Positions 19,283 through 58,664 of a stretch of DNA of 64,000 nt are shown here, piece by piece. The stretch's first letter is position 1. Each line of letters starts with the position of its first letter. The stretch lies in assembly GCF_001295845.1 (NCBI RefSeq), contig NZ_LJIC01000011.1, positions 1 through 64,000 on the forward strand, in the 5' to 3' direction. The position numbers and the translations under genes were made by a program. A model generated the notes under the pieces. The model was not told the origin of the DNA. It ran no database searches and was given only the letters and a program-made list of their open reading frames with translations. The DNA is from Rhodopseudomonas sp. AAP120. GTDB taxonomy: Bacteria; Pseudomonadota; Alphaproteobacteria; Rhizobiales; Xanthobacteraceae.

Positions 19283-19333
19283 GCGCGCCTCGCGCTGCGT
19301 CGCCGATTTTTAGATTTTTTGTCTGGTCGCGGT

Positions 19334-19358
19334 GGAAACCGGATTCGGCATCCGTCTT
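19334..19358 (+). promoter_or_regulatory. Candidate ECF-type promoter before the giant adhesin gene
   Basis: GGAAAC (19334-19339) and CGTCTT (19353-19358) resemble ECF -35 and -10 elements. The 13-base spacer is shorter than the usual 16-17, so this is only a candidate; a second GGAAC occurs at 19365. It lies 40 bases before the adhesin start. Confidence 0.25.
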
Positions 19359-19396
19359 CGCTTCGGAACGTGTGTGACTTCCGCGAAAGGACGACG

Positions 19397-31300: not shown

Positions 31301-31414
31301 CAGAAGCAAAGCTACGATCCAAACGCACCGATCAAAGTCGTCGGCTACGGACCAATCAAGCCGTCGGAGACCAGCGACCTCACCGAAGAGGAAAAGCGCG
31401 CACTGGCGCGATGA
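19397..31414 (+). CDS. Giant filamentous haemagglutinin-like exoprotein (TpsA type)
   Basis: About 4005 residues. A long arginine-rich signal peptide (about 1-55, RRLLLTSVSVLTVMLAAPQVSA) precedes an Ala-rich stretch. The TPS secretion domain follows (about 140-260: QAILNWSSFNVGANTSLVF and NQSGIIFGGGSQINVGSLIAS). The rest is a repetitive Gly/Ser/Ala beta-helix-type filament with patterns like VTVSGGAIDLSGG. A DUF3739-like region lies near the end (about 3535-3870: AYFGKLAPEQQNIFLRQVYF). The C-terminus is short and acidic. Such proteins are secreted through a TpsB porin and mediate adhesion or biofilm; no tpsB gene is in the window. AAAGGA supports ATG 19397. Local AT-rich inserts (28140-28260) look like variable modules. 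Confidence 0.85.
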   Translation: MPTQLRRRLKSPSQPTARRWANVRQPGEAPLSRRLLLTSVSVLTVMLAAPQVSARSLGVAAPVSAPAIAADAAAQAAAQAAAAAAQGSASLNRATAAIQAMQAAQAAARAAAAGAGGVANGLASGGLVPDSGLAAQGVAKPVLSWTNARTPVQSGPADAPTVTVQQTGAQAILNWSSFNVGANTSLVFDQQGNSNWVALNRVGASASPSRILGSIRADGSVYVINQSGIIFGGGSQINVGSLIASTAAITDSQFLTYGIYSNVINTFYTPSFTAAGGKVVVEAGALITTAAPKTVTSGGGSVILLGTEVSNAGSITTPKGQTVLAAGDSFILRAGYGTDSNAVSTTRGIEVAPVRASNSASGAVSNSGLIFAQQGDVTLAGHSIAQSGIAISTSSVDQRGTVHLLNSASDATSSVTLGEDAITAILPEMDSKATALDSQRDALIADSAKQNANRWTAVNGVPQFDNLSLIADRQDQSRVEIVSGGTVTFKRNSLTLAQGGQIAASALGEMRIETQATLDVSGTTGTLLPASANNLKVNVQPNEMRDAPVNRDSGVLVNKDVWIDIRDLVLVPAGTGGYASDRTYTKGGLLEVAGYLANTGHTIGEWTAVGGTVTLASATKVTAERGALIDLSGGMVNYAAGDILSTMVIGADGRIYSIGNAPVDMPIIGYGSSFTRDHARWGQRETWTGPAHGAVRSVHQEAYSIGRDAGLLQLLAPTSDFKADIDAAVYTSDRQTSARPSTKTDGYKLGQTQPGLPGQLFVGFMDLGRSAAPPPANNAVLFAGPGTAQVTSPSHVFDAAAISAMGLGGLSVSGAADVEGDLTFAPGAIVSLSVSRLAGNITARGGSVNLVVYSIEPGVTIDTRGLWTNALIDQTNVSGLAYRNGGSISASAFDAGLVIPAGVRLDASAGGAILSNGKFSGGNGGDITLSGTSVVLNGDVVSNGFGKGGKLTLSSSGAVVIGSSPLSGTTLAAGEAAPVLLVLNSAVTLPKGTVAPFSISMTIKSVAPGQLVPAGASPVVSFASPITVGSAGWTVPSGIYYAIDMNGNYYYPGNTVPADRSLQYIYGSFAGGYVLPLNSFTTELKINPTNLTFAAGSVLAYDAVLSKGYVLPAGAVLPQSVEVAPVTVLDPALFQKGFSSYTINGGLGTTVQPGVRLDVVEPTYQFSPALVGLPTGGRVDTVASLALAPLFSEDALRRTLTQRPGADLVLNGYAQYAVGTSSGEHAEAPITVGRGASITVDPGYKVSITTQDQITIDGRITAHGGAITAFNTRPNAPIQGGSVFGRSIWIGGSAVLDVSGVGYAATDIRGRRYGVVTDGGSIMLGTSETPSTDGLDSGNAFVVVRPGALIDASGASAVLDVIGEGPALVAGNGGSISLTSLWGFAIDGMLRAAAGGAGASGGSLSLMLESPIVAIGSGVSSDLLAAATAGRVITVSQDARSSGLAAGLAPGAADPALVLGSGRISVAQIDAGGFDSLSLWARSAIAFDGNVDLSLGRSLVLQQGKIVNSSATGQVTLAAPYVLMDGYTLQANTKHPEWTTAFADRLPAYPKGSSFSISSDLVDVRNVVSIAYGKVGVSSTGDIRFLKATASASAGLGYVTILGAGGDLDLTAAQIYPASGTDAIAAAGGVESAGSSFGYTRFSDAGSRLTVHGTGTVPGMPYSVFGNLTLLAETIEQGGVVRAPMGQIKLGAVGSAFGQAINTTSLIELLPGSITSISANGLVVPYGGTVDGITYTVDGFAPVTPSLLNGRYQQVQQLSTYFNVGVVFTGSSVQTDSGSLIDLSGGGTLAGAAFVSGRGGSVDPLLTPLANAGIHSFSSASNKVYAIVPGVVTAPVAGGYNTIWTGGAPSIGKQIKIPAGVPGLPAGTYTLLPANYALLPGAYRVELGARTDQAMSPALAGGSYVLTGHQGVANTAIQDALATRLVITPGAAVRSYAQFNEQSYGDFIVSSAAQFGTRRTLTEADGKFLTFDLTPDANRAANSALKINGAINFAGAAGGLDGTLFLTTGANLVGADLVITGPGSTTTNTASRTTVSADTLAAIGAPNLVLGGRPYDNGTIASVDRGNLDLVSSLTIESGARIVGSQVMAFSATNITLQAGAEINTLGRGFRGLDSSSGLAFGSAPSRDPVYYTFLAVSNGSIILNASSGVGSGSIVMNDGAALYSEGTIGFYSPTGLQTNGSVKLGTRNLALSVASFNIGSAEALAAVPNLPVGLRFDQNFLETLLSGGGAAGAPAVEHLIMTASQSINFFGSVDLSTFDPVTGRSRLEELVLASPAIYGYGSSSDRVHLATSRLVWTGGRVYDPVVTGVNSTPQFKSATPPERLGGLGDSGSFVVDAREVVFGYSASAQPDANLVFNRLMLGFGSAVFNAAERVTANNKGTVSVYASGPAIGSSFDPASYQGVGGNLLFNTPLITGDAAANLAIYGNVVTFASTGVTPGNAGGLGATLAVTADTLRVDTSVLLPGGALTLTARQDLLIDSGARLDLSGHAVAIGRAVRQAWAGDVTLTSLNGNVTLAAGSVVDLSSDGSDAGTLKLRAAGTARLAGTLMGSGGGHGARDGAFDLTTASLGGDLSADFAVLNQKLNASGFAYSRSFAFSSGDLVVGSDVKARNVAITADGGGLIVDGRIDASGLRTGAIRLAARDDVVLTGSAVLDVHGTQLVIDSYGQPIEASNRNSIELGTRQGWIRIGGGATMDTSSPDGIARGRVDINARRSSETGGDVDIDAPAPLNLRGIASLAVNAYWTYSPTDAAGTIVQDNTATGIVSGAVGLAQIDATNQIFYANALANSALQDRLAGLKSIGAAYHFRPGVEIVSSAASGGKLTVVGDLDLAGYRYGSNADRDPASATYGSGEPLALMIRASGDLTIKGSITDGFGQPKSSPDEVNFRDRPQNGAVTVIPAYAPPYDDYTPTEDMTLGEDWVVPYYYYDGTTRLYVSTDRGYFYSGDLIPAGTKILWTGDTYFFFGGDQLVPAAANIVRLSQGKIYAIAPMLAPGAMSASIRLVGGADLASGDSRALLPADRLGGAGNLVLDDYHTHSPTKMGADTRQTEIASVIRTGTGDLDLLAGGSLSQRSLFAVYTAGTQQDLPSGNSAYIIKQPAIQLPIGTGLESTYNDRANYFPDHGGDLRVSVQGNLSGYNANLSLMGDGGDWLMLQGAPDLGLPAAWSVNFGNYKGQVYVSGPLGFGTYGGGNATVLVGGNAGGIGMTNIYAPNRVTTGLSVAVGSTGRVLADGTLVETGGGDLTVRIGGRLNPLSAGGQVTNLRGSVSLQAAEIGSIGKAYATALPGDPRPADFTSAANIAFSVLGPSLRLGDAAAAIRSQGSALLGTLGEIGISQAQNVSSYGDVAGPGNTSIVTWFSLYQPSTAVDVASLGGDLFPFMVGDGLYAPPQFRAAALSGSIYATASQVPSARASFELLAQGSIYGSGGVVMSAADPALVPTPFHPAFAQVRTGSVFLTNAISTTRGALVAFGPDAPTFDLHAGDPEPVRIYAANGDIVGLTLSTAKRLDMEAGGDIVMTTTDTNNSTSVTILHANATDVSTVTAGGKIIYPRITVKGPGELAITAGSDIYLGNLGSITSSGPAYAADLRPGASIALLAGAGTAGPNYAAIAALYLDPANLAVAGTPLADQPGKIAKTYEVELKSWLAQRFGYGATNDADARAYFGKLAPEQQNIFLRQVYFAELKAGGREYNDSSSTRYGSYLRGRQMIAALFPDRDAGGKPIAYDGDFVMFGDNGVRTIAGGDISILTPGGRQVLGVEGKVPPGTAGVITQGQGDISLYSQGSILLGLSRIMTTFGGNILAWSAQGDINAGRGSKTTLVYTPPKRIYDRYGNVRLSPQVPSTGAGIATLNPVPGTTAGDIDLIAPLGTIDAGEAGIRVSGNINLAALQIVNAANIQVQGASTGLPTVQGPPVAALTNANNVAGAATPAAAAPAQNNDRPSIILVEFLGFGGGDGEGDNRPANKPASGQKQSYDPNAPIKVVGYGPIKPSETSDLTEEEKRALAR

Positions 31415-31892: not shown

Positions 31893-32854
31893 ATGGATAG
31901 CAGGCTGAACTCGATCGATGATGAAGCTGGCACGGCGAACGCCTGTCCGGCGCAGGCGATGCGCATGGCTGCGTCAACGCCGGCCTTCCCGGCGCTCGAA
32001 GGCCGGCATCCCTGCTTCAGCACCACGGCCGAGGGACATTCGCGTAGCGCGCGGTTACACCTGCCGGTCAGCCCGGGCTGCAACATTGATTGCGCGTTCT
32101 GCATTCGCGATTTCAACCGGCGCGACCAGCGTCCCGGCGTCGCCACACGGTTGCTGACGCCGGAGCAGGCGGTCGACATCGTCGAGCGGGCGCTGGAGTT
32201 GTGTCCCACGATCAATGTGGTCGGCATCGCCGGCCCCGGCGATCCTCTGGCGACGCCGCACGCGCTCCGCACATTTGCCTTGGTGCACGAGCGCTGGCCG
32301 GAGCTGGTGCTGTGCCTGTCGACGAACGGCCTGATGCTGCCCGAGCGCATCGAGGAGATTGCAGCGGTCGGCGTCACGACGCTGACGGTGACGGTCAATT
32401 CCGTCGATCCGCTGATCCAGGCGCAGATCACCCCGAAGATCGCGTGGCAGCGCAAGCGCGTCGACGGCGTCGCGGCCGCCGAGCGACTGATCGCCAATCA
32501 GCTCGAGGGCATCGCCCGCGCGGCTGCGCTCGGGCTGACCATCAAGATCAACACCGTGCTGATTCCGACTGTCAATGACCATCATATCGGCGCCGTCGCC
32601 GAACGCGCCAGCGCGGCGGGCGCGCATCTCATCAACATCATACCGCTGATTCCGCAGCACGGATTCGCGCATCTGCCGGCGCCCGGCATGATCGCGCGCC
32701 ATGCCGCACGGACGGCAGCCGCGCAGCATCTGCGCGTGTTCACGCATTGCCAGCGCTGCCGCGCCGACGCTGCGGCATTCCCGGCGTCAGCGACTATGCG
32801 GCGCAGCTCTACGGCGACGGCCTCAGCGCCGAATCGACTTTTTCCCACGGCTGA
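31893..32854 (+). pseudogene. marB: MarB-type radical SAM protein, frameshifted near its end
   Basis: NifB-like radical SAM protein needed for cofactor maturation of methylthio-alkane reductase. CX3CX2C cluster motif CNIDCAFC is at residues 63-70; the following sequence matches the second copy at 39339-40265 throughout. The reading frame breaks at about 32769: after HCQRCRADA the +1 frame instead continues to 33101. The correct ending (CGIPGVSDY...ESTFSHG, stop at 32852-32854) is found in another frame, consistent with loss of one base in GCC-TGC. As written, the product lacks the conserved CG and last 25 or so residues and gains a junk tail running into marH. Either a sequencing error or a true mutation complemented by the second copy. 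Confidence 0.8.
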
Positions 32855-32880
32855 GGCCGATCACAACTGGAGAAGCCGAC

Positions 32881-33756
32881 ATGGCGAGACAACTCAAACA
32901 GATCGCGATCTACGGCAAAGGCGGAATCGGCAAGTCGACGACCACTTCGAACATCAGCGCCGCGCTGGCCGAGGCCGGCTACAAAGTGATGCAGTTCGGC
33001 GCCGATCCCAAGGCCGACTCCACCAACACCCTGCGCGGCGGCGAGTACATCCCGTCCGTGCTCGACCTGCTGGCAGAGAGGCGGCGGGTCGATGCCTATG
33101 AGGCGATCTTCGAAGGCTTTGGCGGCATCTATTGCGTCGAGGCCGGCGGCCCGCAGCCCGGCGTCGGCTGCGCCGGTCGCGGCATCATCACTGCGGTGGA
33201 GCTTTTGAAGCAGCAACGCGTGTTCGAGGAATTGAATATCGACATCGTGATCTATGACGTGCTCGGCGACGTGGTGTGCGGCGGCTTCGCCGTGCCGGTG
33301 CGCGAAGGCATCGCCGAGCACGTCTTCACCGTATCGTCGTCGGATTTCATGGCGATCTACGCCGCCAACAATCTGTTCCGCGGCATCGAACGGTTCTCCA
33401 ATTCCGGCGGCGCGCTGCTCGGCGGGATCATCGCCAACTCGATCAACACCGATTTCCAGCGCGAAATCATCGACGATTTCGCGGCGCGCACCGACACCCC
33501 CATCGTGCAGTACGTGCCGCGGTCGCTCACCGTGACGCAAGCCGAACTGAGCGGCCGGACGACCATCGAAGCCGCGCCGGACTCGGCGCAGGCTGACGTC
33601 TATCGCCAACTCGCCAAGCGCATCGCCGAGCACACCGACTCCAAGGTGCCGACGCCGCTCAATCCGCAGCAACTGCGCGAATGGTCGGCGCGCTGGGCGG
33701 ATCATCTCGTTGCGGCGGAGCGCGCCGAGGCCGAACGAAGCCGCGAGCCCGCGTAA
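32881..33756 (+). CDS. marH: Methylthio-alkane reductase iron protein MarH (NifH-like)
   Basis: 291 residues. The electron-donating ATPase of the nitrogenase-like complex: it feeds single electrons to the MarDK core. P-loop GKGGIGKST (12-20); cluster ligands Cys97 (GVGCAGRG) and Cys133 (DVVCGGF) bridge a 4Fe-4S cluster between two subunits. Arg100, the ADP-ribosylation site in NifH, is present. The DPKADSTNTLRGG region is closer to nitrogenase than to BchL. It is the only iron-protein gene in the window and must serve both MarDK pairs if both are active. Lies 26 bases after the marB stop and 61 bases before marD. Confidence 0.88.
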   Translation: MARQLKQIAIYGKGGIGKSTTTSNISAALAEAGYKVMQFGADPKADSTNTLRGGEYIPSVLDLLAERRRVDAYEAIFEGFGGIYCVEAGGPQPGVGCAGRGIITAVELLKQQRVFEELNIDIVIYDVLGDVVCGGFAVPVREGIAEHVFTVSSSDFMAIYAANNLFRGIERFSNSGGALLGGIIANSINTDFQREIIDDFAARTDTPIVQYVPRSLTVTQAELSGRTTIEAAPDSAQADVYRQLAKRIAEHTDSKVPTPLNPQQLREWSARWADHLVAAERAEAERSREPA

Positions 33757-33817: not shown

Positions 33818-35329
33818 ATGACCCTCAATCTCAAGACCTCGACCGTCGAGACCCGCGAACAGCGGCTCGGCACGATTATCGGCTGGGACGGCACGGCCTC
33901 GAAGCTCGCCGACGAATCCGCGTTCTCGCGCGGCGAGTGCGGCGGCTGCGGATCCAAGGCGCGGCGGGTGTGCGAACTGGAAGGGCCGTTCACCCAGGGC
34001 TCGGTGTGCAGCGAGCAGATGGTGGAATGCCAGGCCGGCAACATCCGCGACGCGGTGCTGATCCAGCATTCGCCGATCGGCTGCGGGGCCGGGCAGGTGA
34101 TCTACAACTCGATCTATCGCAACGGCTTGGCGATGCGCGGCCTGCCGGTGCAGAATATCCGCTTCATCTCGACCAATTTGCGCGAGCGCGACATGGTCTA
34201 TGGCGGCGCCGACAAGCTCGCCGTGGCCATTCGGGCGGCGGTGGAGCGCCACGCGCCGAAAGCGGTGTTCATCGCCACGTCCTGCGCCAGCGGCATCATC
34301 GGCGACGACGTCGAAAGCGTCGCGCGCGCCGCCGAGGCGGAGTTCGGCATCCCGATCATCCCACTACACTGCGAGGGCTTCAAGTCAAAGCACTGGTCGA
34401 CCGGCTTCGACGCCACCCAGCACGGCATCCTGCGCCAGATCGTGCGTAAGAATCCGGAGAAGCGACAGGACGACCTGATCAACGTCATCAATCTGTGGGG
34501 CACCGATGTCTTTACCCCGATGCTGGCCGAACTTGGCCTGCGGGTGAACTACGTCGTCGACATGGCGACCGTGGAGCAATTGGCGCAGATGTCGGAGGCA
34601 AGGGCGACCGTGAGCTTTTGCTACACGCTCGGAACCTACCTCGCGACGGCCTTGGAGCAGGAATTCGGCGTCGAGCAGATCAAGGCGCCGCAGCCTTACG
34701 GCTTTCCCGGCACCGACGCCTGGCTGCGCGAACTCGCCCGCGTCACCGGGCGCGAGTCGCAAGCCGAGGATTATATCGCCCGCGAACACGCACGGGTGAA
34801 GCCGTTGCTCGACGAACTGCGTCCGAAGCTGAGGGGCCTCAAGGGCTACGTCGCGACCGGCTCGGCCTATTCGCACGGACTGATCGGCGTTTTGCGCGAG
34901 ATCGGCGTCGAGGTCGACGGTTCGCTCGTGTTCCACCACGACCCGGTCTACGACAGCGAGGATCCCCGACAGGACTCGCTCGGTCATCTGGTCGAGCACT
35001 ACGGCGACGTCAGACATTTCACCGTCGGCAATCGCCAGCAGTATCAGTTCTACAATCTGCTGCAGCGGGTGAAGCCGGACTTCATCATCATCCGCCACAA
35101 CGGTCTCGCGCCACTGGCGGCCCGCCTCGGCATTCCGGCGATCCCACTCGGGGACGAGCATCATGCGCTGGGTTATCAGGGCATGGTCAATCTCGGCGAG
35201 TCGATCCTGGCAGCGCTGCAGCATCGCAAATTCCATCAGGACATCGCGCGCCGCGTGAGCCTTCCCTACAAACAGTCGTGGCTGTCGCAGCAGGATCCGT
35301 TCGCGCTGTCCCGCGCCGCCGTCGCGTAA
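33818..35329 (+). CDS. marD: Methylthio-alkane reductase subunit MarD (NifD-like)
   Basis: 503 residues. Catalytic alpha subunit of the nitrogenase-like enzyme known from R. rubrum to reduce volatile thioethers, such as dimethyl sulfide and 2-(methylthio)ethanol, to methanethiol plus methane or ethylene. All three alpha P-cluster-type cysteines align: Cys64 (GSVCSEQ), Cys89 (HSPIGCG), Cys146 (ATSCASG). Cys248 (TVSFCYTLG) matches the cofactor cysteine. His428-His429 (DEHHALGYQG) lie where nitrogenase has its cofactor histidine. The NifD Gln191/His195 segment is replaced by FKSKHWSTGFD, as expected for an enzyme that does not fix N2. Confidence 0.87.
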   Translation: MTLNLKTSTVETREQRLGTIIGWDGTASKLADESAFSRGECGGCGSKARRVCELEGPFTQGSVCSEQMVECQAGNIRDAVLIQHSPIGCGAGQVIYNSIYRNGLAMRGLPVQNIRFISTNLRERDMVYGGADKLAVAIRAAVERHAPKAVFIATSCASGIIGDDVESVARAAEAEFGIPIIPLHCEGFKSKHWSTGFDATQHGILRQIVRKNPEKRQDDLINVINLWGTDVFTPMLAELGLRVNYVVDMATVEQLAQMSEARATVSFCYTLGTYLATALEQEFGVEQIKAPQPYGFPGTDAWLRELARVTGRESQAEDYIAREHARVKPLLDELRPKLRGLKGYVATGSAYSHGLIGVLREIGVEVDGSLVFHHDPVYDSEDPRQDSLGHLVEHYGDVRHFTVGNRQQYQFYNLLQRVKPDFIIIRHNGLAPLAARLGIPAIPLGDEHHALGYQGMVNLGESILAALQHRKFHQDIARRVSLPYKQSWLSQQDPFALSRAAVA

Positions 35330-35342: not shown

Positions 35343-36725
35343 ATGGCTATCCTTGCCCTCAAGTCGCGTCCGACCGAAGTCACGCCGGAGGCCGATACGT
35401 CCGGCCCCATCGAACTGGTGCGCTACGTCTGCGCAATCGGCGCGATGCAGAGCGCGGCGGCGATCCCGCGGGTGGTGCCGATCACCCATTGCGGCCCCGG
35501 CTGCGCCGACAAGCAGTACATGAACCTCGCATTCTACAACGGCTTTCAGGGCAGCGGCTATGGCGGCGGACCGGTGGTGCCGAGCACCAACGCGTCGCAG
35601 CGCGAGGTGATCTTCGGCGGTGTCGACCGACTGCGCGAACTGATCGAGTCGGCCCAGCTCGTGCTCGACGCCGATCTGTTCGTGGTGCTGACCGGCTGCA
35701 TCCCCGATCTCGTTGGCGACGACGTGGGCTCGGTCGTGCGCGACTTTCAGAAGAAGGGCGTGCCGATCGTCTATGCGGAGACGGGGGGATTCCGCGGCAA
35801 CAATTTCACCGGCCACGAGGCGGTGACCCGGGCAATCATCGAGCAATATCTCGGTCCGTGGAACGGCGTGCGCGAGCAGGGGCTCGTCAACCTGTGGTCA
35901 CTGCTGCCGTATCAAAACACATTCTGGCGCGGCGATCTCGAAGAGATCAAGCGGCTGCTGGAAAGCATAGGTCTGAAGGTCAATGTGCTGTTCGGTCCGG
36001 ATTCGGCGGGACTTGGCGAGTGGCGGAACATCCCCCGCGCGCAATTCAATCTCGTGCCGTCGCCGTGGCTCGGGCTGGCGACCGCGAAGCTACTGGAAGA
36101 GCGTTACGACCAGCCGTTCTTGCACATTCCGGTGTTGCCCATCGGCGCGCGGCAAAGCGGCGAGTTCCTGCGCCAGGTCGCCGACTTCGCCGGCCTTGCG
36201 CCGGAGCCGGTCGAAGCGGTCATCGCCGCAGAGGAGACGCGCTACTACAACTACATCGACGGCTTCACCGATTTCTATTCAGAATATTGGTGGGGGCTGC
36301 CGGCGCGGTTCGCGGTGGTCGGCGACAGCGCCTACAATCTGGCGCTGACAAAATTTCTCGTCACCCAGCTTGGGCTGATCCCGGCCAAGCAGATCGTCAC
36401 CGAGGATCCGCCGGTCGAGCATCGGGACGCGATCCGGGAGCAGTTCCGCACGATCGACCACGACGTCTCGGTCGAGGTCGAATTCGCCGAGGACAGCTAT
36501 CTGATTCACGAGGCGATCCGGAAGGCTGATTTCGGTCACAAGCCGCCGATCATCTTCGGCACCACATGGGAGCGCGACCTGGTCAAGGAGATGAAGGGCT
36601 CGCTGATCGAAGTGGGGTTTCCGTCGTCCTACGAGGTCGTGCTGTCCCGCAGCTACGTGGGTTATCGCGGCGCGCTGTCGCTGCTCGAGCGGATCTACAG
36701 CACGGTGGTCAGCCACAGCGCCTGA
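35343..36725 (+). CDS. marK: Methylthio-alkane reductase subunit MarK (NifK-like)
   Basis: 460 residues. Beta subunit pairing with MarD. Three beta-side P-cluster cysteines are kept: YVCAIGA, HCGPGCADK and VLTGCIPDLVGDD. The gene follows marD by 13 bases. C-terminal SRSYVGYRGALSLLERIYS matches the end of nitrogenase beta subunits (YxGxxGxxxLxExI). It shares its whole layout with the second copy at 48528-49907 but is clearly diverged. Closes the marBHDK operon; a GGGGG-AGT-CCCCC hairpin lies 27 bases downstream. Confidence 0.87.
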   Translation: MAILALKSRPTEVTPEADTSGPIELVRYVCAIGAMQSAAAIPRVVPITHCGPGCADKQYMNLAFYNGFQGSGYGGGPVVPSTNASQREVIFGGVDRLRELIESAQLVLDADLFVVLTGCIPDLVGDDVGSVVRDFQKKGVPIVYAETGGFRGNNFTGHEAVTRAIIEQYLGPWNGVREQGLVNLWSLLPYQNTFWRGDLEEIKRLLESIGLKVNVLFGPDSAGLGEWRNIPRAQFNLVPSPWLGLATAKLLEERYDQPFLHIPVLPIGARQSGEFLRQVADFAGLAPEPVEAVIAAEETRYYNYIDGFTDFYSEYWWGLPARFAVVGDSAYNLALTKFLVTQLGLIPAKQIVTEDPPVEHRDAIREQFRTIDHDVSVEVEFAEDSYLIHEAIRKADFGHKPPIIFGTTWERDLVKEMKGSLIEVGFPSSYEVVLSRSYVGYRGALSLLERIYSTVVSHSA

Positions 36726-36830: not shown

Positions 36831-37451
36831 TCAGGCCCAGGCCGATGGCGTGTCGACGTCGCCGGTCCAGGAATAGATCGCGAGCAGGGGCTCGCTCTCG
36901 GTGCGCATCGCGTGCACCACGTTGCTGTCGTGCAGGGTCGCCTCGCCCGGCGTGCGCGACGAGGTCGTCGAGCCCATGGTCCAATGCGGATGCCCGACAA
37001 GAATGCGGTAGAGCTCGACGGCCGGATGGCGGTGCGGCAGGTAGTGCGTGTGCGGCCCGATCAACGTCAGGCCGAAGCAGACCTCGCGGCTGACGATTGG
37101 GGCCAGCGGGCCGATCAGTTCGGTCCATCCCATCGCTGCATCGAGCCCAGGCGCATCGTCGCGCGGCGCATAACCGTAGCGCCAGGGCAGGTGAGCCGCG
37201 ACCGGCCGCAGCGCCGCAGCAATGTCCGGTGCCTGACGAGACGCGAGGTCGAGGACTGCGGGAAGCTGCTTCGTCAGAGGATGATGCGTCGGTCGGGCCG
37301 GATTCGGCACCGCGGTGGCGGCGGCGAGCAGCGCCTCGACGCGCCCGATCTCGTCGTGCGCTGCGGCGTCGGCGCCGGCCGGATCGGCGAACGCTCGACG
37401 TAACGCTGACACGAGGTCGAGCAGGCGTATACTTTCGTCGTCAGCGTTCAT
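36831..37451 (-). CDS. DMSP-lyase-like cupin (DddL/DddQ family)
   Basis: 206 residues, the length of DddQ. The N-terminal half is helical; the cupin half carries VCFGLTLIGPHTHYLPHRH (about 124-142) with Tyr137, His140, His142, then Glu146 and Tyr148 (VELY), and the second motif LHDSNVVHAMRT with His174 and His180. That Y-x-x-H-x-H...E-x-Y...H set is the metal site of DddL/DddQ lyases, which split dimethylsulfoniopropionate into dimethyl sulfide and acrylate. ATG 37451 is used; the open frame above it is not part of the family. The link to mar genes fits, since DMS is a Mar substrate, but true DMSP activity is unproven. Confidence 0.68.
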   Translation of the reverse strand: MNADDESIRLLDLVSALRRAFADPAGADAAAHDEIGRVEALLAAATAVPNPARPTHHPLTKQLPAVLDLASRQAPDIAAALRPVAAHLPWRYGYAPRDDAPGLDAAMGWTELIGPLAPIVSREVCFGLTLIGPHTHYLPHRHPAVELYRILVGHPHWTMGSTTSSRTPGEATLHDSNVVHAMRTESEPLLAIYSWTGDVDTPSAWA

Positions 37452-37928
37452 TGCGTCGGGCTCGATTGCTGCACCACATAAGTCTGGCCGATCCACGCAC
37501 CGCTTCGACGCGCCTCCCATGCCGCGATCACGCCGACTTCTTTCCTGCGAAATTGCGATTGGAGTGACTAATCGATTCGCGAGCGCCTGAGAGAAGCGCG
37601 CTCTAATAGGGTGGTCTGATTGCTCCCAAGAACGCTGCCAGACGCCGGATTCGATGCCTTCAATGTACTTGGCTGCAATGTTGTTGGATAGGCGAAAGTC
37701 GTAGCCGCCGTTGTGTTGATAGTGAGCTGGTACCAATTGCCGAAGCGTGTAGTGAAAATCTGCTGTATCTCGCCGGCAAACGAAAATCGGGCTCTGGCTT
37801 CTGCCTCGATTTGGAATTGGTCCCGGAGTTCCGCCAACTTACTATCACATTCCATTAACAACTTGTTTGCTGACGGCACGATCAACGGTGAGGCGCAGCG
37901 GACGATTGGGTATGTCTTGGGGGACAGC
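37452..37928. other. Divergent intergenic region with a coding-like remnant
   Basis: 477 bases between the cupin gene and the outer-membrane protein gene. On the minus strand two frames carry protein-like sequence that would join across a shift near 37735: KLAELRDQFQIEAEARARF above, then NGGYDFRLSNNIAAKYIEG below. GC is lower than in the neighbours. This may be a decayed small gene; I cannot name its family. Promoters for both flanking genes must also lie here. Confidence 0.3.
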
Positions 37929-38870
37929 ATGTCGAATTGGGACTTCATTATCAAACCTGCCCGCGGTCTTGCGCGGGCCGCGATCGCCGGCGTGGCGTTG
38001 CTCGCAGCGGGCGGTGCGGCGTCCGCCGACCCGGTCAGCCCTGCGGGGTGGACAGCCGGTATCGCACTCGGCGCGCCGTTGCCGGAAGGCGTGTACTTCA
38101 TCAATACCGCGACCTATTTCGAGCGTTCGCCGAAGTCGGGCACCGGTGCGCCGACGATCGATGCGGGCGTGAACATCCCGGTGGTGGCGTGGGCGACGCC
38201 GCTCACGATCCTCGGCGGCCGCGTCGAGGTGCTCGGCATCGTGCCGGAGTTGGCGGTCGGGGTGAACCCCAATGCCGGCGTCGGCAGCAGCTCCTGGCGC
38301 GACTTCTACAATCCCGCAGGCCTCGTCGGCGTCGCCTGGGATCTCGGTGGCGGTTTCGGCTTCGCCAACTATATCGGCGCCTTTGCGCCGGTGAACACGG
38401 CGCTCGGCAATACACTGAACCTCGGCGGCAACTACTGGACCTTCCTCGAACTCGCCACGCTCGCCTACAATCGCGATACCTGGAGCGCCACGGCCAACTT
38501 CACCTATTCGAGCAGCGGCAACGATCGCAGTACTGGCATCCACATTCAGCCGGACACCGCGCAGATCGACTTCACGATCACCAAACACTTCAATAAATGG
38601 GAAGTTGGTCTGGTCGGCTACGGTTCGACCGACCTCGGCGATCCGTGGCCCCTGCGCACCGCCGGTGGTCTCTATGGTCGCAAGCAGAGCCAGTTCGCAC
38701 TCGGCGGTCTCGTCGGCTACAATTTCGGCCCGGTGATCACGCAGTTCTATCTGACCCGCGACGTCGCCGAGAGCAACTATTCGGGCTACGATACGCGGTT
38801 CTGGTCCCGCGTGATCGTGCCGCTGTGGAATCCGGATGCGCCGGCGAAGAAACCGCTGATCGTAAAGTAA
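37929..38870 (+). CDS. Outer-membrane beta-barrel protein, Phenol_MetA_deg family
   Basis: 313 residues. Signal peptide ending near GAASADP (residue 35), then alternating amphipathic strands rich in Tyr/Trp/Gly/Asn and ending with an aromatic-rich strand, as in the PF13557 transporter family (SphA/MetA-pathway porin-like proteins). Members sit in degradation gene clusters and are thought to pass hydrophobic substrates over the outer membrane. Here it could import organosulfur substrates for the Mar enzymes; that is inference from position. ATG 37929 has GGGGGA upstream. Confidence 0.75.
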   Translation: MSNWDFIIKPARGLARAAIAGVALLAAGGAASADPVSPAGWTAGIALGAPLPEGVYFINTATYFERSPKSGTGAPTIDAGVNIPVVAWATPLTILGGRVEVLGIVPELAVGVNPNAGVGSSSWRDFYNPAGLVGVAWDLGGGFGFANYIGAFAPVNTALGNTLNLGGNYWTFLELATLAYNRDTWSATANFTYSSSGNDRSTGIHIQPDTAQIDFTITKHFNKWEVGLVGYGSTDLGDPWPLRTAGGLYGRKQSQFALGGLVGYNFGPVITQFYLTRDVAESNYSGYDTRFWSRVIVPLWNPDAPAKKPLIVK

Positions 38871-39338: not shown

Positions 39339-40265
39339 TCAGCCGTGCGAGAAGGTCGGCTCGGCTTCGAGCGCGTTGCCGTCGAGTTCGGGGACGTAGT
39401 CGCTGAGGCCTCGGACGCCGCAGGCGTCGGCGCGGCACTGTGTGCAATCGTGGAACACACGCAAATGGCGCTCGGCCTCAGCGCGCGCCACGTAGCGCTT
39501 CATCAGCCCCGGTGACGGCAGATGCGCGAAGCGGTGCTGGGGGATCAACGGGACGATCGTGATCAGCTGCGCTCCGGCGGCAGCCACCTCCGCGGCGACG
39601 TCGCCGATGTGATCCTCGTTGACGGTCGGGATCAGCATTGTGTTGACCTTAATGGTCAGCCCAAGGGCGGCTGCCCGGGCGATGCCGTCGAGCTGATTGG
39701 CGATGAGGCGCTCGCCTGCTGCCACGCCGTCGAGCCGGTGGCGCTGCCAAGTGATCTTCGGGGTGATCTGCGCCTGGATCGTCGGTTCGATGGCGTTGAC
39801 CGTCACGGTCAGGGTCTCGACTCCGAGTTCGGCGAGCTGGTCGACACGCTCGGGCAGCATCAGCCCGTTGGTGGAAAGGCACAAGGAGAGCTGCGGCCAG
39901 CGCGCCCGCACCGCCGCGAAGGTGTCGAGCGCGTGGTTGGTCGCCAGCGGATCGCCGGGGCCGGCGATCCCGATCACCGAGAGCGTCGGGAAATGCTGCA
40001 ACGCGCGCTCGACAATGCCGAGGGCCTGATCCGTCGTGAGCACCCGGTATGCGCTGCCGGGCTGCTGGTTACTGCAATTTAAGTCCCGCATACAGAACGA
40101 GCAGTCGATGTTGCAGTCCGGACTGACCGGCAGATGCAGCCGGCCCGGCTGGATGTCGCCTTCAAAAGTGCTGCTGAAGCAGGGTTGGCGTCCCCGCAGC
40201 GCCGGGAACGCTGGCGTCGGCGCGGCCTGGACGTCGCTGGTGATCGCCTTGAGTTGGATCGTCAT
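39339..40265 (-). CDS. Second MarB-type radical SAM protein (NifB-like), intact
   Basis: 308 residues. Cluster motif CNIDCSFC (Cys51, Cys55, Cys58), then the radical SAM barrel with GIAGPGDPLAT and CLSTNGLMLPE, and the conserved tail CTQCRADACG...PTFSHG that the first copy has lost by frameshift. NifB-like enzymes fuse iron-sulfur clusters and insert carbide to make the precursor of nitrogenase cofactors; the same role is proposed for MarB. Translationally coupled to the NifX/NafY-like gene (ATGA overlap at 40262-40265). Probably supplies cofactor for both MarDK pairs. Confidence 0.87.
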   Translation of the reverse strand: MTIQLKAITSDVQAAPTPAFPALRGRQPCFSSTFEGDIQPGRLHLPVSPDCNIDCSFCMRDLNCSNQQPGSAYRVLTTDQALGIVERALQHFPTLSVIGIAGPGDPLATNHALDTFAAVRARWPQLSLCLSTNGLMLPERVDQLAELGVETLTVTVNAIEPTIQAQITPKITWQRHRLDGVAAGERLIANQLDGIARAAALGLTIKVNTMLIPTVNEDHIGDVAAEVAAAGAQLITIVPLIPQHRFAHLPSPGLMKRYVARAEAERHLRVFHDCTQCRADACGVRGLSDYVPELDGNALEAEPTFSHG

Positions 40266-40642
40266 GCGGCGTTCCGCGCCCGCAACAGATCACTGCCGGC
40301 AAGCTCACGAACCGCCGTCGCGACGCTGTCGTCGGTTTCGAATACAAGAATGCCGAGCGCGTTCAGGCGATTGACGCCGCATTCGCCGATCTTCGCCACG
40401 ATCACCGCCTTGCAATCGGCCACAAGATCGACCGACAGGTCGAGCGGATCGGGGCCTTCGCCGCCGCGTGCGGCGCCGCAGCCGGGCGTATTGCGCCGCG
40501 TCTCCAACAGCCGCGGCTCGTCCGAGGAAAAATCCCAGATCTGGAATTGCAGCGCGTAGCCGAAATGATCCGTGATGCCGACACCATTCCCGGTCGCAAT
40601 TGCGACCTTAATGGGTCCGGTATCAGTAAGCGGCAAAGCCAT
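40262..40642 (-). CDS. NifX/NafY-like dinitrogenase cofactor-binding protein
   Basis: 126 residues forming one dinitrogenase iron-molybdenum cofactor-binding domain (PF02579): VAIATGNGVGITDHFGYALQFQIWDF at the start and ADCKAVIVAKIGECGVNRLNALGI in the middle. Such proteins carry or hold the cofactor precursor between NifB and the apo-enzyme. First gene of a two-gene unit with the intact marB copy. The pairing suggests a dedicated cofactor route for the Mar enzymes. Confidence 0.85.
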   Translation of the reverse strand: MALPLTDTGPIKVAIATGNGVGITDHFGYALQFQIWDFSSDEPRLLETRRNTPGCGAARGGEGPDPLDLSVDLVADCKAVIVAKIGECGVNRLNALGILVFETDDSVATAVRELAGSDLLRARNAA

Positions 40643-44755: not shown

Positions 44756-45529
44756 CGAACCAACTCCAATTGATTGACCCGTGCGAGCATGGGGATGCCT
44801 CACACCGCTGTCGAGGCTCCTAATGAAAAAGCACTGCCTGTGCTGTCGCGATGCCAATGTGGGCATGATTTGTTGCGATCAAGTGTAGCAAGGGCGAATG
44901 ATCGTGCCGTCTGACAGAGGGCCTGCGCAGCCGAGGCAGGTCAATGTACTGCAGGTTCGCATCGATGTGTTGGTGAGGTCTGTGAAGAGCGCGGGCATTA
45001 TGATGGTACCAAGCCGCGTCCCGCGCTTCGCGACCAAAATCTTTCGAACGTCATTCCCTCGATGCGCGCGAATATAGATAGCTGTTCTCGCGCTGCTGAT
45101 TGAAAAGGGTCCGGGCGCTCTCTAGCATCGGGAAATAGCTCTGGATCATTGCTGTATGGTTGATAGCAGAAGCGGGGTGGTGGCGAAGCGTGTGGTGCTC
45201 CGTGGCCCCCAGGTCGTGGCGGCCACGCTCCGTCGGCCTATGATGATGGGTGCCACAAACATGAGATGTCCCGACAAGGCGTGAGAAGTCCGCCCATGAG
45301 TTGTTTTCTATTCCCCTCGTCGTCGCCGTCCCGATCTCCGGGGTATCCTCTTATCGACGCTTCTTGCCGGAAGTGATGATCGTGGTGGTCGTTGTGCTTG
45401 TTCCATCATCCAGCGCGTTCAGTTGCTTGGTGGCGTCGCGGTGCGCGCCGTCAATCACCGCGTCGCGCGCGGCAAGCGATCGTGGTGACGCGCATAGTTC
45501 AGGCCGCTGATTCATTCCGGGGAAACATT
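44756..45529. promoter_or_regulatory. Long divergent leader region before metY-marD2-marK2
   Basis: 774 bases with lower GC than the neighbours in its first half and no supported gene. One dyad, CGTGGCC/GGCCACG, is at 45201-45207 and 45221-45227. I searched for the SAM-II aptamer common before alphaproteobacterial met genes and did not find its conserved elements. The length suggests control elements for both the oxygenase and the metY operon. Confidence 0.35.
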
Positions 45530-46843
45530 ATGTCGCTGCAGACCGTCCAACCGCTTTATCCCGCCAATCTCGACACGCTCGCACTGCACGGCGGCTCGTT
45601 CCGCGCCGATCCGGCCACCGGCGCGACGCAGGTGCCGATCTATCAGAGCACCTCGTTCGATTTGCAGACCACCGAACGCGCCGACCGGCTGGTGAATTTC
45701 GAGGAGTTCGGCTTCGTCTATTCGCGGATCGGCAACCCGACCGCGCACGTGCTGGAGGAGCGGCTGGCGGCACTCGAAGGCGGTGCCGCCGCGCTGGCGC
45801 TGGCGTCCGGGCAGGCGGCTGTGGCGCTGTCGGTGCTGACGCTGGTGCAGGCTGGCGACAACATCGTCACCGGCACCGACCTCTACGGCGGCACCTGGAA
45901 TTTTTTCGCCAATCGGCTGAAGCAGTTCGGCATCGAGGCGCGCTTCGTCGACCCGGCCGATCCCGAGGCGTTCCGCGCCGCCACCGACGACCGCACGCGT
46001 TTGTACTTCGGCGAGACCCTGCCCAATCCGAAGCTCAACGTGTTTCCGATCCGCGAAGTCGCCGACATCGGCCGCAGCTTCGGCATTCCGCTGATCATCG
46101 ACAACACCGCGGCGCCGCTGCTGGCACGGCCGATCGACCACGGCGCGGCGATCGTGGTGCATTCGGCGACGAAGTATATCGGCGGCCATGGCACGACGAT
46201 TGGCGGCGTCATCATCGACAGCGGCCAGTTCCCGTGGGAGGAGTTCGCCGACCGTCACCGGCTGATCACGGGTCCCGATCCATCCTACAACGGCCGCACC
46301 TGGCCGGATATCGCGCGGCCGTTCGGCCCGGTGGCCTATGCTTTCGCGGCGCGGGCTGGGCTGCTCCGCGATCTCGGGCCAGCGCTATCGCCGCAGAACG
46401 CGTTCCAACTGATCCAGGGCGTCGAAACGCTGCCGCTGCGCATCCGCCAGCAGACCGCTAACGCGGCGCGGATCGCCGATTATCTGGCGCAGCATCCCAA
46501 GGTCGAAAGCGTAATCTATCCCGGTCTGCAGAGCGGCGAGGCACGGCGGCGCGCCGACACGTATCTGAAAGGCGGCTACGGTGCGCTGGTCGGCTTCGAA
46601 TTGCCGGGCGGCTTCGCGGCGGGGCGACGCTTCATCGATCAGCTCAAGCTGCTGTTCCACGTCGCCAATATCGGCGACGCCCACAGCCTCGCGATCCATC
46701 CGTCGTCGACCACGCACGCCCAGCTCGCGCCAGACAAGCAGCTCGCCGCCGGCGTCACGCCCGGCTATGTGCGGCTGTCGATCGGTATCGAGAGCGTCGA
46801 CGACATCATCGCCGACATTGCCCAGGCGCTCGACGCGACCTGA
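45530..46843 (+). CDS. metY: O-acetylhomoserine sulfhydrylase (MetY)
   Basis: 437 residues, the longer size typical of MetY. PLP Lys215 in HSATKYIGGHGT; FVYSRIGNPT and the insert GGVIIDSGQFPWEEF...PSYNGRTW are characteristic of O-acetylhomoserine sulfhydrylases. It joins methanethiol to O-acetylhomoserine to give methionine (or sulfide to give homocysteine). In R. rubrum an enzyme of this class uses the methanethiol released by Mar. Here it is the first gene of an operon with the second MarDK pair (28 bases to marD2), strong support for that role. Confidence 0.9.
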   Translation: MSLQTVQPLYPANLDTLALHGGSFRADPATGATQVPIYQSTSFDLQTTERADRLVNFEEFGFVYSRIGNPTAHVLEERLAALEGGAAALALASGQAAVALSVLTLVQAGDNIVTGTDLYGGTWNFFANRLKQFGIEARFVDPADPEAFRAATDDRTRLYFGETLPNPKLNVFPIREVADIGRSFGIPLIIDNTAAPLLARPIDHGAAIVVHSATKYIGGHGTTIGGVIIDSGQFPWEEFADRHRLITGPDPSYNGRTWPDIARPFGPVAYAFAARAGLLRDLGPALSPQNAFQLIQGVETLPLRIRQQTANAARIADYLAQHPKVESVIYPGLQSGEARRRADTYLKGGYGALVGFELPGGFAAGRRFIDQLKLLFHVANIGDAHSLAIHPSSTTHAQLAPDKQLAAGVTPGYVRLSIGIESVDDIIADIAQALDAT

Positions 46844-46871: not shown

Positions 46872-48377
46872 ATGGCGCTCAATTTGAAGAATCCCCAAGT
46901 CGAAACCCGCGATCAGCGGCTCGGCACCATCACCCAATGGGACGGCCGCGCCGGGCAGCTCGTCAAGGACTCGGCCTTCACCTATGGCTGCGCCAAGGGC
47001 TGCGATAACGGCGGGCGTCGCCTGTGCGAACAGTCGACGCCGTTCGCCCAGGCGTCGATGTGTGCCGAGCACATCGCCGTCACCAACGCCACCATCATTC
47101 AGGACTCAGTGGTGGTGCAGCATTCGCCGATCGGCTGCGCTGCCAGCCAGTCGTTCACTGCGCGCTACTATCGCGACCTGGCCGCGCGGCGCGGCTGGAA
47201 GCTCGAAGACCCGAAGTCGATCTGCACCAATTTGGGCGAGCAGGACATGGTGTTCGGCGGTGTGACGCGGCTGGAGGACACCATCCGCGACGCCTATGAG
47301 CGGCACAAGCCTCGGGTGATCTTCGTCGCGACCTCCTGCGCCACCGGCATCATCGGCGACGACGTCGACGGCGCCGCCAAGCGGGTTGAGGACGAGATCG
47401 GCATTCCCGTCGTCACTTTGCATTGCGAGGGCTTCAAGTCGAAGCACTGGTCGAGCGGCTGGGACGTGATCGAGCACGGCATCTTGCGCCGGCTGGTGCC
47501 GCAGTCGCCGAACAAGCAGCCCGACCTGATCAACGTCATCCATCTCGGCGGGCCCGACGTGTTCTCGCCGCTGCTAAGCCCGCTCGGCCTGCGGGTCAAT
47601 CTGGTGATGGGCGGCAATACGTTGGAGCGGCTGGCGCAGATGTCGGAAGCCGCGGCGACGGTGACGATGTGCTTCGTGCTGTCGTATCTCGCCACCGGGC
47701 TCGAACAGGAGTTCGGCGTGCCGGAGGTGAGGGCGCCGTTGCCCTATGGGCTGGACGCCACAGACAACTGGCTGCGCGACATCGCGCGGTTGACAGGCAC
47801 GTCCGGCAAAGTCGACGCGGTGATTGAAAGCGAGCGGGCGCGCATCGCCCCGGAGCTGGCGCGGCTGCGCAGGGCGCTGACCGGCAAGCGCGGCTTCGTC
47901 GCCGCTGGCGCCGCTTTTGCGCACGGGCTGATCACCGACTTGCGCGAGCTCGGCGTTACGGTCGACGACGCGTTCTCGTTCCACCACGATCCGGCCACCG
48001 ACTCCGGCGATCCTCAGCAGGACTCGCTCGGCCATCTGGTCGAAACGTGGGGTGACATCCCGAACTACACGGTGAGTCCCGATCAGCACTTCCAGGCCCA
48101 CGCGGCGCTGCTGCGCGCCAGGCCGGACTTCGTGATCTGCCGCCACACCGGCACGCTGGCGGTGCTGGCCGGGCGGATGGGCATCCCGGTGCTGCCGATT
48201 TTCTATTCCAACGACGGCCTCGGTTACGAAGGCCTGCTGACGATCGGCCGCGCCATCCTGCGTGTGCTGCCTCGCAAGCGCTTCTACGCCGACATCGCCG
48301 CGCACAGCTCGTTTCCGTATCAGCCGTGGTGGCTGGCGGAAACCGATCCCTATGCGCCGATTGGCGAGCCGGCGTGA
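46872..48377 (+). CDS. Second MarD-like nitrogenase alpha-type subunit
   Basis: 501 residues, collinear with MarD over the full length. P-cluster-type cysteines Cys64 (ASMCAEH), Cys89 (HSPIGCA) and Cys146 (ATSCATG) and the cofactor cysteine Cys247 (TVTMCFVLS) are kept. At the position of MarD His428-His429 it has Asn427-Asp428 in FYSNDGLGYEG, so no histidine is available there. Two further cysteines near the N-terminus (YGCAKGCD) are only partly shared. Encoded between metY and marK2, with no iron-protein gene of its own. Predicted to be a Mar-family reductase with altered cofactor binding or a different thioether range. Confidence 0.82.
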   Translation: MALNLKNPQVETRDQRLGTITQWDGRAGQLVKDSAFTYGCAKGCDNGGRRLCEQSTPFAQASMCAEHIAVTNATIIQDSVVVQHSPIGCAASQSFTARYYRDLAARRGWKLEDPKSICTNLGEQDMVFGGVTRLEDTIRDAYERHKPRVIFVATSCATGIIGDDVDGAAKRVEDEIGIPVVTLHCEGFKSKHWSSGWDVIEHGILRRLVPQSPNKQPDLINVIHLGGPDVFSPLLSPLGLRVNLVMGGNTLERLAQMSEAAATVTMCFVLSYLATGLEQEFGVPEVRAPLPYGLDATDNWLRDIARLTGTSGKVDAVIESERARIAPELARLRRALTGKRGFVAAGAAFAHGLITDLRELGVTVDDAFSFHHDPATDSGDPQQDSLGHLVETWGDIPNYTVSPDQHFQAHAALLRARPDFVICRHTGTLAVLAGRMGIPVLPIFYSNDGLGYEGLLTIGRAILRVLPRKRFYADIAAHSSFPYQPWWLAETDPYAPIGEPA

Positions 48378-48410
48378 CTGCGCAATGTTGATAAGTAACA
48401 AACCTTTCCC

Positions 48411-48490
48411 CGTCATTGCGAGGAGCGAAGCGACGAAGCAATCCAGCGCCGTGCACTGGTCTGGATTGCTTCGCTTCGCTCGCAATGACG
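48411..48490. repeat. 80-bp palindromic repeat between marD2 and marK2
   Basis: CGTCATTGCG (48411-48420) and CGCAATGACG (48481-48490) are perfect inverted ends; inside them GAAGCAATCCAG and CTGGATTGCTTC also pair. The element (GTCATTGCGAGGAGCGAAGC type) is a well-known dispersed repeat of many bacteria. In RNA it would form a long hairpin inside the operon, which may uncouple the levels of the two subunits. Confidence 0.85.
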
Positions 48491-48527
48491 AGGAGAAGGC
48501 GATGAACATATCCTGAGAAGTGAAGCT

Positions 48528-49907
48528 ATGCTGTCTCCCGTCACCAACACCCAGGATCCCACCGGTGCGTTCTGTGCTTCGCCGGGCGCCATCGAGCAGG
48601 TGCGCTATGGCTGCAGCCTCGGTGCGCTGGCCAGCGTCATCGCCATTCCCGGCGCGATCCCGATCACGCATTGCGGACCGGGCTGCGCCACCAAGCAGTT
48701 TCACGCGCTGTCCGGCATCAACGCCTATCAGGGCGGGGAATTCCATGTGCCGAGCACCAATCTCGGCAATCAGGAAGTGATCTTCGGTGGCGCCGACCGC
48801 CTCGACGAGTTGGTCGCGTCGACGCTGAACGTGATGGAGGCTGACCTTTTCGTCGTGCAGACCGGCTGCATCCCAGGGCTGGTCGGCGACGACGTCGGCA
48901 GCGTCGTCCGCAAATATCAGAAGCGCGGCGTGCCGATCGTGGTGGCCGAGACCAGCGGCTATCGCGGCAACAATTTCACCGGCCACGAAACGGTGATCCG
49001 CGCCATTATCGATCAGTTCGTCGATCTCCGCGATGCGCCGCTACAGCGCGGTCTCGTCAATGTCTGGTCGCTGCTGCCGTATCAGAACCCGTTCTGGCGC
49101 GGCGACCTTGCCGAGATCCGTCGGCTGCTCGAGGGCATCGGTCTGCAGGTCAATATTCTGTTCGGGCCGGCCTCCGCCGGGGTCTCCGAGTGGCGTGCCA
49201 TCCCGCAGGCCCAGTTCAACCTCGTGCTGTCGCCGTGGCTCGGACTCTCGACCGCGGCGCATCTCGAGGAGCTTTACGGTCAGCCCTTCCTGCACGAGCC
49301 CACGATCCCGATCGGCGCCAAGGCGACCAGTGCGTTCCTGCGCCGTGTGGTCGAATTCGCCGATCTCGACCGCGTCCAAGCCGAAGCCTTCATCGCACGC
49401 GAGGAAAAGGAGCACTACATCTATCTGCGCGACTTCGCCTGCTTCTATGCCGGCTCGACCAGCCAGTATCGGCTGCCGTCGCAGGCGATCGTGGTCAGCG
49501 AGAGCGCTTACAATCTCGCCGTGGCGAGCTTCCTGGTCGAGCAGCTCGGCCTCAATCCGGGGCCGTTCGTGATCAGCGAGAACCCACCGGAAGAATTGCG
49601 CGAGACCATCCAGAAGCAGTACCGCGCGCTCGCCGACCATGCCGGCGCCGAAGCGATGTTCGAGCAGGACGGCAAGCGCATCCACCAGATCGTGCGGGCC
49701 ACCGACTTCACCGGCGAATTGCCGATCGTGTTCGGCTCGACCTGGGAGGCGGCGCTCGCCGACGAGATCGGTGCGCCGCTGGTCGAGATCGGCTATCCGT
49801 GCACCGACGAGGTCGTGCTGTCGCGAGCCTATGTGGGCTATCGCGGCGCGCTGCAACTGATCGAGCGGACCTACACCACGGTGGTGCGCGCCAGCACCAT
49901 GGGCTGA
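48528..49907 (+). CDS. Second MarK-like nitrogenase beta-type subunit
   Basis: 459 residues, aligned end to end with MarK. Beta-side cluster cysteines are kept: YGCSLGA, HCGPGCATK, VQTGCIPGLVGDD. LVNVWSLLPYQNPFWRGDL and SRAYVGYRGALQLIERTY are near-identical to the first copy, while the middle (about 290-400) differs. It must pair with the MarD-like protein upstream despite the 150-base gap with the repeat. Its last 37 bases overlap the end of the opposing threonine aldolase gene. Confidence 0.83.
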   Translation: MLSPVTNTQDPTGAFCASPGAIEQVRYGCSLGALASVIAIPGAIPITHCGPGCATKQFHALSGINAYQGGEFHVPSTNLGNQEVIFGGADRLDELVASTLNVMEADLFVVQTGCIPGLVGDDVGSVVRKYQKRGVPIVVAETSGYRGNNFTGHETVIRAIIDQFVDLRDAPLQRGLVNVWSLLPYQNPFWRGDLAEIRRLLEGIGLQVNILFGPASAGVSEWRAIPQAQFNLVLSPWLGLSTAAHLEELYGQPFLHEPTIPIGAKATSAFLRRVVEFADLDRVQAEAFIAREEKEHYIYLRDFACFYAGSTSQYRLPSQAIVVSESAYNLAVASFLVEQLGLNPGPFVISENPPEELRETIQKQYRALADHAGAEAMFEQDGKRIHQIVRATDFTGELPIVFGSTWEAALADEIGAPLVEIGYPCTDEVVLSRAYVGYRGALQLIERTYTTVVRASTMG

Positions 49908-53115: not shown

Positions 53116-53125
53116 GGTGTCCTCT

Positions 53126-53464: not shown

Positions 53465-53481
53465 AAATCCCCCTCGGATAA

Positions 53482-58592: not shown

Positions 58593-58664
58593 TCACAATC
58601 CACGTCAAATCGTCCAAAGCCGAGCGGCTATTGCGCCGCGGTTGAACCACGACAGGATACGACC

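Follow-up and report, generated by a model that had tools for sequence, protein, structure and literature searches.

The window, i.e. the whole 64,000-nucleotide stretch of Rhodopseudomonas sp. AAP120 DNA that was analysed, carries at 36831-37451 a gene for a cupin resembling dimethylsulfoniopropionate (DMSP) lyases, with genes of a methylthio-alkane reductase (Mar) on one side and the remnant of a methyltransferase gene on the other. The features concerned are the following.

31893..33101, plus strand: NifB-like radical SAM protein, marB by position (TIGR01290, E 3.4e-73, below cut-off)
32881..33756, plus strand: NifH-like reductase component, marH by position (Pfam, NCBIfam)
33818..35329, plus strand: methylthio-alkane reductase subunit MarD (9fmg 7.8e-274, 9d9u 4.6e-273; next match 2.2e-35)
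35343..36725, plus strand: methylthio-alkane reductase subunit MarK (9d9u chain C, 7.9e-222; next match 1e-22)
36831..37451, minus strand: DMSP-lyase-like cupin of PF16867, an ORF of 206 aa (Pfam, fold, motif)
37448..37536, minus strand: fossil of an MmtN-like methyltransferase gene, last ~28 codons (delimited by the start of the blastn match and the cupin start codon)
37929..38870, plus strand: PF13557 protein (Pfam)
39339..40265, minus strand: second NifB-like radical SAM protein (Pfam, NCBIfam)
40262..40642, minus strand: PF02579 cofactor protein, like NifX or the NifB C-terminus (Pfam, NCBIfam)
45527..46843, plus strand: MetY, O-acetylhomoserine sulfhydrylase (TIGR01326, 542 bits against a cut-off of 495)
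46872..49907, plus strand: second MarD/MarK pair, behind MetY (its MarD 53% identical to the first MarD)

The cupin gene is confirmed as genuine: the minus strand at 36831-37451 is an open frame, and the plus strand in the same frame carries stops. It is convergent with marK, the two gene ends (36725 and 36831) being 105 bp apart. Judged by sequence, this neighbour is a true marBHDK operon, in which the marB entry is a mechanical ORF whose 3′ part overlaps marH. Both the mar genes and the metY gene named in the initial annotation are thus borne out, MarD and MarK by their matches to 9fmg and 9d9u (labelled 'Nitrogenase' in the table of solved structures, and taken by us to be R. rubrum MarDK) and MetY by a score above the family cut-off. 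A nitrogenase proper was rejected for the neighbour, as MarD and MarK are far closer to solved MarDK, though MarH scrapes past the cut-off of the nifH equivalog TIGR01287 (395.3 bits against 394.35). By the same matches the operon would encode the enzyme described as R. rubrum MarBHDK (PMC12552129), and the accessible text of that paper was found to contain neither a cupin nor DMSP.

Elsewhere in the window, a sulfur island at 51353-60434 encodes SoxY, a flavocytochrome c sulfide dehydrogenase flavoprotein, a sulfur transporter (PF04143), an aldehyde dehydrogenase, a CoA ligase and the sulfoacetaldehyde acetyltransferase Xsc (above cut-off), and a repetitive ORF of 4031 residues at 19319-31414 on the plus strand resembles, by eye, a large secreted haemagglutinin-type exoprotein.

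The cupin is DddQ-like in predicted fold and active site and belongs to a probable subfamily of its own

The initial annotation assigned the cupin to the DMSP-lyase-like family, and this assignment holds: the protein scores 85.3 bits in PF16867 against a cut-off of 27 (Pfam, E 5.1e-24), and its predicted fold is closest to that of DddQ. A search of NCBIfam with the cupin gave no result. In a single-protein search of solved sequences, all five matches at E <= 0.001 are DMSP lyases (4b29, 2e-11; 5cu1, 3.4e-11; 4la2, 1.7e-6; 5jso, 1.8e-6; 4la3, 3.2e-5). The AlphaFold2 model (mean pLDDT 95.6) finds DddQ as its best Foldseek match (9.5e-17), with DMSP lyases in the first six rows, and again as its top VIA match (Z 24.1, rmsd 2.2, 190 residues), followed lower down by DddY at Z 15.9 and by the first non-lyase at Z 12.3.

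To place the protein among its relatives, species genomes were scanned by pattern, which returned 79 matching stretches and among them 23 loci of the clade to which the window cupin belongs. These loci lie in the Alphaproteobacteria (Rhodopseudomonas, two; Magnetospirillum fulvum, two; Rhodomicrobium, Siculibacillus and a Methylobacteriaceae MAG), in the Betaproteobacteria (Pseudothauera and thirteen more records, most of them Azoarcus and Zoogloeaceae MAGs), and in one Spartobacteria and one Opitutia MAG. In this count the two M. fulvum strains stand separately and R. udaipurense, Siculibacillus and JSC-3b once each; it includes close relatives, which are not independent of each other.

The predicted active site of the cupin consists of Y137, H140, H142, E146, Y148 and H180, the first five within the motif Y137-L-P-H140-R-H142-P-A-V-E146-L-Y148. 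According to the portion of the literature available to us, motif 1 of DddQ, DddW and DddL comprises two His, one Glu and two Tyr and motif 2 one His (PMC5395565), a set that every one of the 23 clade rows possesses, and the metal ligands and catalytic tyrosine of DddK correspond to the cupin motif residues (PMC10686828). The alignment comprised 56 rows: 23 of the clade, 30 of other PF16867 proteins and three of DddQ. The six residues are invariant in the clade (23/23) and, with the exception of one cell, also present in all 30 other PF16867 rows, which come from loci L011-L040 and are high-scoring search matches, not a random sample. Thus, the residues of the DddL/DddQ motif reported in the initial annotation are all there, but the motif is common to PF16867 and so marks the family without singling out DddL/DddQ or DMSP as substrate; as proof of function it was rejected on the same ground.

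What sets the clade apart are R97, D99, C125, W157 and Y193, which are invariant across its 23 rows and which none of the three DddQ rows has; among the 30 other PF16867 rows, a few carry one or another of them, but never the whole set. In the tree, the clade and the three DddQ rows stand apart (100/98), a tentative separation given that the DddQ rows are partial and that long branches meet here. Compared with DddQ (4b29, 5cu1, 4la2), the window cupin shares the fold (Z 22.9-24.1), the metal ligands and both motif-1 tyrosines, but is only 21-23% identical in the structural alignment, differs at the five clade positions, and belongs to a clade paired with a methyltransferase gene, for which the role of DMSP lyase is putative. 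Taken together, sequence and model predict a DddQ-like C-S lyase that forms a subfamily of its own. The DMSP-lyase-like family reportedly includes members of unknown function, as the title of a 2018 study has it, and the window clade may be one of them.

Relatives of the cupin are paired with an MmtN-like methyltransferase

At 20 of the 23 loci outside the window, the next gene upstream of the cupin, on the same strand, encodes a methyltransferase-like protein of ~320-350 aa. Of the remaining three, L067 offers no more than 271 bases of upstream sequence, and at L069 and L071 the gene is absent. The two genes are closely spaced, with gaps of -4 to +17 nt in 18 of the 19 loci measured (L068 left out) and 852 nt at the nineteenth, L061. 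Each of the 22 cupin genomes searched (L071 lay outside the search) contains the methyltransferase gene, and in the order it occurs in four of 297 genomes (E <= 1e-30) and is invariably adjacent to the cupin gene. As a control, the 30 other PF16867 loci L011-L040 were searched over ~1.5 kb per side (two were shorter on one side), and none has it (tblastn, E 0.01). It was not found in plasmid records either, where the cupin search gave ten distant cupins, six of which are annotated as members of the lyase family.

The nature of this partner is suggested by its modelled fold. Searches of Pfam gave no family above cut-off, only weak PrmA and Methyltransf_12 matches, and NCBIfam gave no result. 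With the model (pLDDT 86.8, with values <50 at 172-181) as query, MmtN takes the first nine Foldseek rows (9.8e-13 to 1.5e-10), ahead of Asc-Orf2 (1.7e-10), and the first three VIA rows (Z 20.2-20.5), ahead of N6AMT1 (17.8), so that the MmtN fold ranks above other methyltransferases by both methods. In sequence searches against solved proteins the order is reversed, with PrmA at 0.00078 and MmtN at 0.0074 for the single protein and at 0.0022 and 0.43 for a 19-row profile, and a 4-row profile found no MmtN at E <= 1. The proposed relation to MmtN therefore comes from fold, and by sequence it is weak and behind that to PrmA. A resemblance of the partner to the plant methionine methyltransferase served as a lead only.

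MmtN (7vvv, 7vvw, 7vvx), the best structural match, has a glycine-rich loop and a ribose-binding Asp whose position (D115) is retained in the partner, but identity is ~22%, and the positions of Arg132 and Cys121 are not conserved in the weak sequence alignment. The Arg132 column, judged by eye in this weak alignment and with a model whose pLDDT is <50 at 172-181, has Arg in just two of 19 methyltransferase rows, hence the acceptor may not be methionine, which MmtN itself converts to S-methylmethionine (PMC9135737, as far as its accessible text goes). MmtN moreover works in bacterial DMSP synthesis, whereas the partner gene here precedes a lyase-like gene.

In the window, this gene is reduced to a fossil. 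A protein-level match of 35 residues remains at 37463-37567 (tblastn, E 2.3e-5), and there is a 4-nt overlap between the fossil stop and the cupin start, an arrangement shared with six of the 19 loci whose gaps were measured. A stretch of ~700 nt that takes in the methyltransferase end and the cupin is 74-75% identical to the DNA of two other Rhodopseudomonas genomes, G300 and G302 (blastn). No close copy of the methyltransferase was found elsewhere in the window genome, only a distant paralogue (E 3.1e-22). With the gene reduced to a fossil, the cupin must use a sulfonium made elsewhere or imported, or else be a recent relic.

The cupin is recurrently linked to mar in Alphaproteobacteria and often lies near MetY

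The neighbourhood of cupin and mar genes that the initial annotation noted in the window recurs, and a recurrent link is supported for the Alphaproteobacteria. MarH, MarD or MarK is encoded <=10 kb from the cupin at five of the 23 loci, all alphaproteobacterial (tblastn, E <= 1e-25), L052 and L059 having MarH alone within this distance; beyond the 23 loci, the same holds for G139, G300 and G302. In G300 and G302, metY, marD, marK, one gene with no family match, the methyltransferase gene and the cupin gene follow each other on one strand. Among 16 Rhodopseudomonas genomes, four have the cupin (E <= 1e-20) and seven have MarD (E <= 1e-100); all four cupin genomes also have MarD, G299 just the 53% type, and such a cupin is missing from three of the seven MarD genomes. 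In the order as a whole, MarD occurs in six of 297 genomes. Against a fixed role of Mar with the cupin speak the 17 of 22 cupin genomes in which MarD was not found, among them R. udaipurense, in which one end of a contig carries marB and marH, and G030 and Siculibacillus, in which cupin and mar lie unlinked on different contigs. In the 17 genomes, MetY would need methanethiol from elsewhere.

Two side observations concern the mar genes themselves. Two or three MarD copies occur in six of the 16 Rhodopseudomonas genomes, and three Rhodopseudomonas genomes carry a further nitrogenase-like set (L101:13480-16157, L102:13766-16712, L103:1-794) with MarH-like (64-66%) and MarD/MarK-like (28-32%) proteins, too distant for Mar.

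A MetY-type gene lies <=2 kb from the cupin at 14 of the 23 loci (tblastn, E <= 1e-25; a partial metY piece at L072 was left out). Enoyl-CoA hydratase genes occur near the cupin at three of 23 loci (R. rhenobacensis, M. fulvum), two of which also have a PaaK-like CoA ligase, and such neighbours would fit an unsaturated acid as product. In Siculibacillus, MetQ and MetI homologues adjoin the methyltransferase-cupin pair, a possible sign of an amino acid substrate. At the Spartobacteria locus L055, URO-D-type methyltransferases, a corrinoid activator and a corrinoid protein surround metY, methyltransferase and cupin. In this it is like the non-selenium type I mlp clusters, in which mar genes stand alongside corrinoid clusters and marHDK-like genes and MetY lie near corrinoid methyltransferases; the accessible text of the paper describing them was found to contain neither cupin, DMSP nor 'SAM-dependent' (PMC10418091). 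A DUF1847 (PF08901) gene occurs <=10 kb from the cupin at five of the 23 loci (genes at L041:13093-13794, L053:8125-8784, L056:5830-6492 and L071:7216-7863), often with SsuABC-like transport genes.

Discussion

Based on these findings, we propose that the cupin is a DddQ-like lyase in a sulfur-salvage module, together with an MmtN-like methyltransferase and often MetY, in which a thioether is methylated first and eliminated afterwards; we put the probability of this reading at about 0.5. First, the methyltransferase would S-methylate a thioether carboxylic acid with SAM to yield a sulfonium. Upon binding of its carboxylate to the His/His/Glu/His metal of the cupin, a tyrosine would remove the alpha proton, and the beta carbon would lose a methyl sulfide, most simply dimethyl sulfide (DMS). 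Mar, in purple bacteria, would then reduce DMS to methanethiol, from which MetY, with O-acetylhomoserine, would form methionine, while in the Spartobacteria MAG the corrinoid methyltransferase set near the module might take the place of Mar. That a SAM-spending MmtN-like enzyme, a DddQ-like cupin and either a nitrogenase-like reductase or a corrinoid system together return thioether sulfur to methionine is a more far-reaching statement, and we make it tentatively, at less than even odds.

The chemistry narrows the choice of substrate. Beta-elimination requires the sulfonium beta to the carboxylate, so the likely acceptors are 3-methylthiopropionate, which would give DMSP, or S-methylcysteine. 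S-methylmethionine, which carries its sulfonium in the gamma position, ranks lower as cupin substrate. What the DNA and its models show is the family, the fold, the residues of the active site, the pairing of the genes and the fossil; the acceptor, the sulfonium, the release of DMS and the direction of flow we infer. With the MmtN-like gene directly upstream in relatives, the cell may itself produce the sulfonium.

The path suggested in the initial annotation, from DMSP through DMS and methanethiol to methionine, agrees with our proposal in the lyase family, Mar and MetY, while DMSP as the substrate is weakened by the family-wide motif, the clade residues absent from DddQ and the MmtN-like gene upstream. 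In that version, the cupin is a plain DMSP lyase that splits imported DMSP into DMS and acrylate, the sulfur of which Mar and MetY salvage. It is in keeping with PF16867, the DddQ fold, the full catalytic set and the presence of Mar and MetY both within the window, and the loss of the methyltransferase here calls for a sulfonium from another source. However, a methyltransferase gene beside the cupin at 20/23 loci would be needless with imported DMSP, and R97, D99, C125, W157 and Y193 differ in all three DddQ rows. Nor did the genome, searched for carriers of the BCCT type, yield the DMSP importer that had been looked for, and nothing was found tying the PF13557 protein at 37929, presumably a barrel and proposed earlier as an uptake route, to the uptake of sulfonium compounds. 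We consider the import of DMSP unlikely, and weaker than methylation followed by elimination.

Alternatively, the methyltransferase could methylate a thiol acid, from which the cupin eliminates methanethiol directly for MetY, with Mar as a parallel supply. MetY, the commonest further partner of the pair (14/23 within 2 kb), is found also in genomes where MarD was not, which suits this route. But methanethiolate is a worse leaving group than DMS, and the solved proteins closest in fold, MmtN and DddQ, form or split sulfonium compounds; we judge this route improbable, a shade more so than DMSP import. Lower again we rate the idea that the cupin of the window strain is a relic, left substrate-less by the loss of the methyltransferase, with decay just starting. 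The 3′ fossil and the lack of a close copy elsewhere in the genome would agree with it, but the cupin frame is intact, no column otherwise invariant deviates, and dN/dS against four relatives (0.21-0.31) lies within the range of other pairs (0.13-0.45), a pairwise measure that is blind to recent loss. Finally, we find it barely credible that the cupin is the methylthioxylulose-5-phosphate methylsulfurylase of the MTA-isoprenoid shunt, an enzyme known from R. rubrum and R. palustris: the shunt exists in R. palustris and delivers methanethiol to O-acetylhomoserine sulfhydrylase (PMC5893883, in its accessible passages), but the cupin's solved-sequence matches at E <= 0.001 and its first six Foldseek rows are DMSP lyases, and the methylsulfurylase is not named among its sequence or fold matches, the enzyme's own sequence lying outside this comparison.

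The family relation of the cupin was known already; we found no description of a module of methyltransferase, cupin and MetY, nor of a link between this module and mar. The earlier impression that no pairing of a DMSP lyase with mar had been described agrees with our literature search, which covered few subscription papers and found methylthio-alkane reductase together with neither cupin nor dimethylsulfoniopropionate; a wider search, of titles and of passages from PMC6302742 and PMC5893883, found none treating the pair. The DMSP-lyase papers cited here concern marine life. If the proposal is true, purple bacteria, Azoarcus-like Betaproteobacteria and Verrucomicrobiota-type MAGs would possess a source of DMS independent of imported DMSP, which would account for one source of the DMS that the nitrogenase-like Mar can consume. 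The combination of a DddQ-like enzyme with an S-methyltransferase and MetY, with or without Mar, would further give a role to lyase-like cupins of unknown function, and would show how cells might cleave a stable C-S bond via prior methylation, hinting at an undescribed form of sulfur recycling in which a compound is methylated and then split.

Two further gene pairs were seen beside relatives of the methyltransferase. In the window genome, the distant paralogue (L074:460-2469, contig C95) lies beside a D-cysteine desulfhydrase/CuyA-like PLP enzyme, and in G309 (L111:8672-10690) a relative adjoins a cystathionine beta-synthase-like PLP enzyme; these two cases are possibly further pairs that methylate and then cleave.
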